Below, one piece after another: positions 47,338 through 49,580 of a DNA stretch of 64,000 nucleotides. Origin of the DNA: Pelagihabitans pacificus (lineage in GTDB: Bacteria > Bacteroidota > Bacteroidia > Flavobacteriales > Flavobacteriaceae); contig NZ_VIKU02000001.1 in the NCBI RefSeq assembly GCF_009371985.2, positions 744,001-808,000 on the forward strand, read 5' to 3'. Both the position numbers and the translations under genes were made by a program. The notes beneath the pieces are model-generated. The model was not told the DNA's origin. It did not search any database and saw nothing but the letters and a program-made list of their open reading frames with translations. Every line of letters starts with the position of its first letter. Positions within the stretch are counted from its first letter, which is position 1.

Positions 47338-47799
47338 TTAAAATTTCAATATAACTTTTGCTTCTTTGATATCGGAAAAAACAATTTCCTTTTTTTTCTG
47401 CACGGTCACTTTCCCTTTCCCAATAGGTTTGGGTTCCCTTGCTTTCCATTCCAACACAATTCCGTCCTCCGTAACAGAGGCGAGCTTGCCCTCGAAACTA
47501 TCTTCGGCGGTTACGACGGTCAACTTTCGGCCAACATTCTTGGCATACTGCCTTGGCATGGTCATAGGCGTAGTAGCCCCTGCGGAGGTCACCTCCAGTG
47601 AAAAATCCTCTTCTTCGCGATCTAGATTGTGCTCAATGGCCCTGCTGATTTTCATACAGTCCTGCAATGTTACCCCTTGATCACCGTCCAGTACCACTTT
47701 TATCCTGTTGTCGGCTCCCATCGAAAAGTCGACCAAAAACAACGATGCTTCCTCAGCGAGCGCTTCGTTTAAAAGAGTAGTTACCTTGTCTTTTAACAT
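47338..47799 (-). CDS. rimP: Ribosome maturation factor RimP
   Basis: A 153-residue factor for 30S subunit maturation. The family parts are LFLVDFSMGADNRIKVVLDGDQGVTLQDCMKISRAIE and FSLEVTSAGATTPMTMPRQYAKNVGR. The ATG at 47799 (MLKDKVTTLLNEAL) is the usual flavobacterial start; a GTG at 47850 would add 17 atypical residues. First gene of the rimP-nusA-infB operon. Confidence 0.94.
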   Translation of the reverse strand: MLKDKVTTLLNEALAEEASLFLVDFSMGADNRIKVVLDGDQGVTLQDCMKISRAIEHNLDREEEDFSLEVTSAGATTPMTMPRQYAKNVGRKLTVVTAEDSFEGKLASVTEDGIVLEWKAREPKPIGKGKVTVQKKKEIVFSDIKEAKVILKF

Positions 47800-47931
47800 C
47801 TGCCTTAAAATTTGACCCTCTTTCGTTCCCCTTTGGATATTCGTTTTCACCCGGTTTCACTTTCAAAGTAAGTTGTTCGATTGGTCTCTTTTACTTCGTA
47901 CTTGACGCAGATAAAAGAAATTCCAGCAAAC

Positions 47932-47956
47932 AAAAAAGAGGACTTAATGTCCCCTC
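47932..47956 (-). terminator. Intrinsic terminator in the rimP-nusA-infB leader
   Basis: On the minus strand GAGGGGAC, loop ATTAA, GTCCTC plus two Ts: an 8-bp stem with a G-T pair, directly followed by a run of Ts. It lies about 25 nt after the predicted transcription start and 130 nt before the rimP ATG. ATG AGG GGA CAT TAA (47958-47944) runs through the 5' arm and stops in the loop. Confidence 0.65.
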
Positions 47957-47985
47957 ATGAATACTTAAATATCCTTTCAGTGGTG

Positions 47986-48018
47986 CAAATATACATATTT
48001 TTTATTGATTTCTACAAT
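47986..48018 (-). promoter_or_regulatory. Promoter of the rimP-nusA-infB operon
   Basis: Minus strand: ATTG (48018-48015), 21 nt, then TATATTTG (47993-47986), an ideal -7 of the Bacteroidota type. Predicted initiation is near 47979, giving a leader of about 180 nt that contains the terminator. Confidence 0.6.
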
Positions 48019-48176
48019 AGATGGTTCAGATCTCGGACCGTAAAAACCAACGATTGGGAAACAACTGTATCCAAAGGATAGAAACGTCCATGCGATTCCT
48101 TCCCAGTGACAATAATATCACCGTGATTGCTGTTAATGTAGTACATTTATTCTTAATTCATCTAAACCGACCAAGC

Positions 48177-49580
48177 ATGGACATCCTATCTTCCTACAAT
48201 GTCATAATAGAGGCATCGATTATCGTCATCCTGTCGTTTTGGTTCAACGGCATTTCTAAAAAAACCAACATTCCCTCGGTGTTAATGCTTATCGTACTAG
48301 GTGTCATTTTACAATATGTACTGAAATACTTTGTACAAAGACTTCCTGATTTTGAAGCTTCCTTGGAGATTTTGGGTACCGTAGGGCTTATCATGATCGT
48401 CTTGGAAGCCGCCTTGGAGCTCGAATTAAAACGGGAGAAACTTGTACCCATTCTTAAATCGATGGCCATCGCCCTTATCGGTCTCGTAGCGTCGGCCTGG
48501 GTGGCCGCACTAATTATTTATCAATTTATTCCCGATATGACCATGGCATCGGCCTGGCTGTACGCTACTCCGTTATCGATTCTCTCCAGTGCCATTATCA
48601 TTCCAAGTGTAGGCGGACTTTCGGAATCGAAGAAAGAATTTCATATTTACGAGAGCACCTTCTCGGATATCATGGGAATCATGATGTTCTATTTTTTAGC
48701 GGCCGAATTCGACCCTGCCCAAGATGCCGGACTGGGAAGTTTTGCGGGCAACATCGTACTCACGATTGTCATTGCCATCGTAGCCAGTTATGCCATCATC
48801 CTCATTTTTCAAAGAATCAAAAGCCAGGCGAAGCTGTTCCTGTTGATTTCCGTACTGCTATTGCTGTACGCCATTGGAAAGAAATTGCACCTCTCGTCGC
48901 TTATCATCATTTTGATTTTTGGCCTGATCGTCAAGAACATTAAACTCTTCTTTCCGGGAAAGACGGCCATATTTTTGGATAAGGAAAGGATGGATCAAAT
49001 CTACCATGAGCTTCATATCATTACCTTGGAAACAGCTTTTATCGTACGCACCTTTTTCTTTGTCATATTTGGTATCACTATTGCCATTGCCTCCTTGTAC
49101 AGCTTAAACGTCGTCTTGATCAGCGTATTAATCATCGCTTCGATTTATGCCATTCGCTTTGTGATTCTCCGCGTCTTTATTGGAAGCGACATTCTTCCCC
49201 AACTATTTATTGCCCCAAGGGGGTTGATAACCGTGTTGTTATTCTATGCGATTCCCAAACAAGCCCAGATCGCAACCTTCGAATCAGGGGTATTGCTGTT
49301 CGTAATTATCGCCACCAGTTTGGTGATGACCTGGGCGATGATCAAAGATAAACGCAAAATGGGTACGCTACTGGATGAGATCGACGAGGAAATAAGGGAA
49401 CGAAACCAAGCGGAAGATATATTACACGAGAAAAACCCGGTGGCCCTTATCAACGATATTGGCGATGTTCCGGATACTATCCAATCGGGTAACGCAGGTA
49501 TCGCTCCGGGGGGCCTAACCGGTGATGAGGGTAGCGATTCGGAAGAAGCGGAAAGAAGACCACCGGAAAAGGATTCATAG
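48177..49580 (+). CDS. Cation/proton antiporter, CPA family
   Basis: A 467-residue membrane protein with about 12 helices of the Na+/H+ (or K+/H+) antiporter type: NGISKKTNIPSVLMLIVLGV in the first helices, GLIMIVLEAALELELKREKL, TPLSILSSAIIIPSVGGLSE and GLITVLLFYAIPK. The ATG at 48177 was chosen because MDILSSYNVIIEASIIVILSF is a normal first helix. After the membrane part there is a 60-residue charged cytoplasmic tail, rich in Glu and Asp, possibly regulatory. The ion is not decided by sequence. A terminator follows. Confidence 0.9.
   Translation: MDILSSYNVIIEASIIVILSFWFNGISKKTNIPSVLMLIVLGVILQYVLKYFVQRLPDFEASLEILGTVGLIMIVLEAALELELKREKLVPILKSMAIALIGLVASAWVAALIIYQFIPDMTMASAWLYATPLSILSSAIIIPSVGGLSESKKEFHIYESTFSDIMGIMMFYFLAAEFDPAQDAGLGSFAGNIVLTIVIAIVASYAIILIFQRIKSQAKLFLLISVLLLLYAIGKKLHLSSLIIILIFGLIVKNIKLFFPGKTAIFLDKERMDQIYHELHIITLETAFIVRTFFFVIFGITIAIASLYSLNVVLISVLIIASIYAIRFVILRVFIGSDILPQLFIAPRGLITVLLFYAIPKQAQIATFESGVLLFVIIATSLVMTWAMIKDKRKMGTLLDEIDEEIRERNQAEDILHEKNPVALINDIGDVPDTIQSGNAGIAPGGLTGDEGSDSEEAERRPPEKDS

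Follow-up and report, generated by a model that had tools for sequence, protein, structure and literature searches.

A conserved intrinsic terminator ahead of rimP-nusA-infB in Bacteroidota, a probable transcription attenuator of the rimP-leader kind

The 64,000-nt stretch of Pelagihabitans pacificus DNA analysed here (the window; contig NZ_VIKU02000001.1, positions 744,001 to 808,000) carries, between a promoter and the first gene of the rimP-nusA-infB operon, a hairpin followed by a U run which, judged by comparison of leaders, is a real and old element kept over nearly the whole phylum Bacteroidota. The leader is best read as the form that the ‘rimP-leader’ attenuator (Naville & Gautheret 2010) takes in Bacteroidota, and we consider it probable that it is a transcription attenuator of that kind with NusA as the most likely controlling signal. 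The preliminary description of this DNA had proposed a promoter box, an intrinsic terminator close behind it and placed to attenuate the operon, and a four-codon leader frame coinciding with the terminator 5' arm; the box, the frame (its stop codon lying within the loop) and the identities of RimP, NusA and IF-2 were all confirmed (Table 1), and the terminator and its placement were upheld by conservation.

Table 1. Features of the rimP leader and operon in the window.
Feature	Position	Strand	Basis or remark
Candidate -33 element, TTG	48015-48017	minus	21 nt upstream of the -7 box; agreement with the Bacteroidota promoter type is at the level of consensus only
Promoter -7 box, TATATTTG (TAnnTTTG)	47993-47986	minus	sequence; box present in relatives' leaders
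Stretch between -7 box and ATG of leader frame, CACCACTGAAAGGATATTTAAGTATTC		minus	
AAAGGA	47977-47972		13 nt from the ATG
Small upstream hairpin, GGATAT-TTAA-GTATTC	47974-47959	minus	about -2.7 kcal/mol, weak, clade-specific
Four-codon frame, ATG-AGG-GGA-CAT-TAA	47958-47944	minus	
Intrinsic terminator (attenuator)	47956-47932	minus	sequence and comparative evidence
Terminator 5' arm, GAGGGGAC	47956-47949	minus	
Terminator loop, ATTAA	47948-47944	minus	
Terminator 3' arm, GTCCTCTT	47943-47936	minus	
Terminator T run, TTTT	to 47932	minus	
U tract with conserved tail, TTTTTATAC	47932-47926	minus	
Terminator-rimP spacer	47800-47931	minus	
rimP, first gene of the operon	47799-47338	minus	NCBIfam NF002531 RimP, 216 bits against a cut-off of 123; ATG at 47799, in-frame GTG at 47850 also possible
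nusA, proposed feedback regulator	47327-46095	minus	TIGR01953, 363 bits against a cut-off of 253
infB (IF-2)	46052-43383	minus	TIGR00487, 828 bits

A scan of the region in the single genome gave 17 terminator-like sites against 12.5 +/- 4.1 in shuffled sequences, close to the shuffle level, so that a terminator seen in one genome is no proof and the evidence has to come from comparison. Among 149 family genomes RimP was found in 140; the sequence ahead of it was read in 130 cases, with the hairpins chosen by an anchored pick, the first automatic pick having taken other hairpins in several loci. A hairpin with a U run lay between the promoter region and rimP in all 130 leaders, its 5' arm being exactly GAGGGGAC in 113 and its 3' arm exactly GTCCCCTC in 104; it was likewise found in 80/80 of the nearest named relatives (Maribacter, Zobellia, Allomuricauda, Arenibacter and others). 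When 110 nt of each leader was scanned, the hairpin exceeded the 99th percentile of dinucleotide shuffles in 92% of the family leaders (130) and in 94% of those from the class Bacteroidia (69); three of the family exceptions, L001 (the leader of the window), L003 and L015, missed this percentile only because their hairpins sit close to the end of the scanned stretch or outside it. All 69 class leaders were above the 95th percentile; their core was mostly GGG(G)AC...GTCCC(C), with variants including AAGGGAAC/GTTCCCTT, CAGGGGAC/GTCCCCTG and AGCGGGGAC/GTCCCCGCT. In the other Bacteroidota classes a hairpin with a U run exceeded that 95th percentile in 19 of 20 genomes; there the stems differ in sequence while the hairpin remains, so that structure and position are older than sequence. 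The pattern GRGGGGACN{3,7}GTCCYCTYTTT matched once in the 4.56 Mb genome, and further copies elsewhere in the genome were rejected on the strength of this single match with a U run. The family profile did not match RimP in class members G179, G219, G252, G281 and G307 (f24), nor in G206, G242 and G271 (f51).

A TAnnTTTG box preceded the stem in 128/130 of the family leaders (median distance from box end to stem 27 nt; about 30 nt in the window) and in every one of the 80 nearest named relatives. A start about 20 nt before the ATG of the leader frame had been proposed; the box on which this depends was found, and the start itself is an estimate from that box alone, putatively near 47980. The neighbouring gene on the other side of the leader is transcribed divergently, which leaves no minus-strand gene upstream in need of a terminator at this place. 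That the hairpin is simply the terminator of some gene upstream, or else an RNA-stability or processing hairpin, is accordingly very improbable: the region has many terminator-like sites and a 5' hairpin could protect the mRNA, but no transcripts of the divergent neighbour would end here, a promoter box precedes the hairpin at a short and constant distance, and longer U runs behind weaker stems (see below) would not be expected of a stability hairpin. As a side observation, the divergent antiporter-like ORF on the plus strand was listed from 48021, that is, from within the intergenic region (48021-48177 in the window); the ATG at 48177 is the likelier start, to judge by the position at which this gene begins in relatives, L002 and L004 for instance.

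The hairpins vary in a way that fits termination. Across the aligned family hairpins 97.6% of cells were paired and four of the eight pairs changed on both sides; seven double-change cells were observed, a number reached by none of 500 shuffles. These counts come from the family hairpins, whose loops were filled out with N so that the arms stayed in register, without the shifted-arm rows L128 and L129; a MAFFT alignment of the class-wide hairpins was not used for them because it misplaced the 5' arm, loop lengths being different. Weaker stems were accompanied by longer T runs (Spearman rho 0.81 over 18 distinct stem/tail sequence classes, a figure that ignores phylogeny), as expected of a terminator. 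The hairpin ended 8–27 nt before the rimP start in most relatives and 52–136 nt before it in six genomes, including the window (136 nt to the ATG, or about 86 nt if the in-frame GTG is used), and retention of the stem despite this shift argues that it acts on transcription and not on the rimP start. Taken together, the compensated pairs, the relation of stem to T run and the retained hairpin make termination a better explanation than a role in translation or stability. Within the genus the spacer between terminator and rimP varied from about 17 to more than 100 nt and its sequence was not conserved; short inverted repeats were seen in this spacer in L015 and L007.

Downstream of the stem the U tract was interrupted distally, with A at position 6 in 99 of the 130 family leaders. 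In most of the family a conserved ATAC followed it (TTTTTATAC), position 7 being T in 128/130 and position 8 being A in 111/130. Both stem sequence and tail are conserved beyond the need of a plain terminator, and another factor may read them. It is improbable, in our assessment, that the hairpin is a sequence-specific site through which some other product of the operon or a ribosomal factor (RimP, IF-2 or a ribosomal protein) controls termination or rimP translation. The exact stem and the TTTTTATAC tail are kept over about 130 genera beyond what pairing needs, and the hairpin often ends 8–27 nt before the rimP start; on the other hand, lineages with altered stems retain a hairpin and U run and not the sequence, and in several genomes, the window included, the hairpin persists at 52–136 nt from the start codon. 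A related proposal, which we regard as speculative and rather doubtful, is that the Bacteroidia stem GAGGGGAC/GTCCCCTC and the TTTTTATAC tail form a dedicated, sequence-read element by which NusA or a partner would sense its own level and which would be conserved class-wide in sequence and not merely in shape.

The preliminary description had also assigned a function to the four-codon frame, in that a ribosome translating it would block the hairpin and allow readthrough. This we find hardly credible. The exact frame is present in five of ten congeners (the window and four others) and in one near relative, yet although an ATG stands at the hairpin base in 57/130 family leaders, an in-frame stop inside the hairpin was found in only three of them and the frame often continues into rimP; among the 80 nearest named relatives the corresponding counts were 71 and 13. 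The proposed comparison of leaders across Flavobacteriaceae thus bore out the hairpin and not the frame, and the congener L235 has AAG in place of the ATG with its hairpin intact. Nor was an antiterminator detectable, pairing of the leader with either hairpin arm being at or below the level of shuffles. Leader-peptide control was therefore rejected, the overlapping reading frame not being conserved and no alternative antiterminator fold being found, and the sequence comparison indicates that the frame is incidental and without function.

The AAAGGA said to lie upstream of the ATG is present. As a Shine-Dalgarno sequence it was rejected, both for its distance and because ribosomes of Bacteroidia do not recognise such sequences (PMC9976891, PMC6847099); it therefore gives the frame no support. 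It overlaps the small upstream hairpin, G(G/A)AUAU-N2-5-GUAUUC, which was found with 5–7 pairs in 28/28 clade leaders ending in TATTCAT/A and was absent from other leaders. The sequences are only suggestive of a clade-specific element. This small hairpin, followed by AT and then by the first G of the stem, accounts for the high ATG count, the conserved TATTC and the ATG context in the clade of the window.

With no detectable antiterminator to switch, control through the efficiency of termination remains. We infer that the hairpin terminates transcription in vivo. Transcription would begin near 47980, and about 25 nt later the RNA would fold the GAGGGGAC/GTCCTCTT hairpin, followed by the U run; this would be the default fold, with no antiterminator competing. 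Part of the polymerases would stop there, freeing an RNA of about 50 nt, and the remainder would read into rimP-nusA-infB. At high NusA, more termination at the imperfect U tract would lead to less NusA being made, and at low NusA the polymerase would pass the terminator.

NusA is proposed as the controlling factor by analogy, on account of cases in Bacillus subtilis and Streptococcus agalactiae and of the distal interruption of the U tract. The B. subtilis nusA gene is autoregulated through NusA-stimulated termination in its 5' leader, according to the passage of PMC12288461 that summarises Mondal et al. 2016. In S. agalactiae short RNAs end 31 nt from the start of the rimP operon, and NusA feedback was proposed there (PMC4448216). 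Terminators dependent on NusA and NusG often have distal U-tract interruptions, as stated in PMC8060035 where it cites Mondal 2016, and the A at position 6 counts for the NusA reading because this trait is reported for NusA-dependent terminators. The presence of nusA within the operon, after rimP in 58/58 loci with enough sequence, was also counted in favour of feedback. Of the two marks of a suboptimal terminator, a weak hairpin and/or a distally interrupted U tract, the leader thus has the interruption, and the window stem contains two G-U pairs (mean of its class -10.1 kcal/mol). Against the NusA reading counts the strong stem of most relatives (about -15 kcal/mol), NusA-dependent terminators often being weak. 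If NusA does act here, changing the U tract from TTTTTATA to TTTTTTTT would lessen NusA dependence.

An attenuator of the simplest sort, in which the terminator sets a fixed share of readthrough and responds to no feedback signal, seems unlikely. It would agree with the finding of neither an antiterminator nor a sensor domain and with a short and variable leader between promoter and stem; however, the phylum-wide position before nusA and the B. subtilis precedent favour feedback, and a 5' arm kept exactly in so many family leaders suggests more than tuning.

Attenuators of this layout, which the preliminary description had taken to be unfamiliar, are already known as ‘rimP-leader’ (PMC2965389), as is, from PMC9723704, a structured element in front of rimP in members of the Flavobacteriaceae. 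Added here are the Bacteroidota-wide survey, the compensation between stem and U run, the grounds for discarding the leader frame, and a link between these reports. Promoter-proximal termination before the nusA operon is thereby extended to nearly all sampled Bacteroidota, which supports the idea that termination-based NusA feedback is ancient and general, and the leader offers a simple means of testing what NusA does in a phylum whose transcription termination is little studied.

Like the general form of the rimP-leader (PMC2965389, Figure 2b), the leader described here consists of an intrinsic terminator alone, without an antiterminator structure, between the promoter and rimP of a rimP-nusA-infB operon, directly before these genes and, in most relatives, near the gene start. 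The arms are G-rich on the 5' side and C-rich on the 3' side in both, GGGc...gCCC in the published form and GGGGac...gtCCCC here; the GGGGAC...GTCC(C/T)C core has its one genome-wide match with a U run at this leader, and the c/g beside the G run is usually a-c/g-t. Unlike the published form, the conserved stem is longer (eight pairs, with the largely invariant 5' arm) and differs in sequence outside Bacteroidia; the published distance from terminator to gene is 4–130 nt, a range that the window would slightly exceed with the ATG as rimP start and would fall within with the GTG. The main text of PMC2965389 describes Firmicutes and Gammaproteobacteria and does not mention Bacteroidetes. The B. 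subtilis nusA operon also has an intrinsic terminator without an antiterminator in the 5' leader of the NusA-encoding operon, as summarised in PMC12288461, where the effect of NusA was shown, whereas here we infer it; the leader reported for B. subtilis is 180 nt (PMC2965389) as against about 50 nt here.

The Rfam family RF01770 (rimP), a curated model of 102 positions, shares the name and the genomic setting. It gave no match to the window leader even at E 10, its curated cut-off was passed in 0/21 relatives' genomes, and it gave none in 15 loci; an Rfam identity was rejected for RF01770 and for all families at E 10, and the leader hairpin is a candidate Rfam family. A transcribed and structured 5' element has been reported ahead of rimP in Flavobacterium psychrophilum, with conservation in further genera of Flavobacteriaceae and absence from Rfam (PMC9723704, Guerin et al. 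2021). The main text of that paper gives no mechanism; the element occupies the same place in the same family, and it is very likely identical with the leader hairpin described here.
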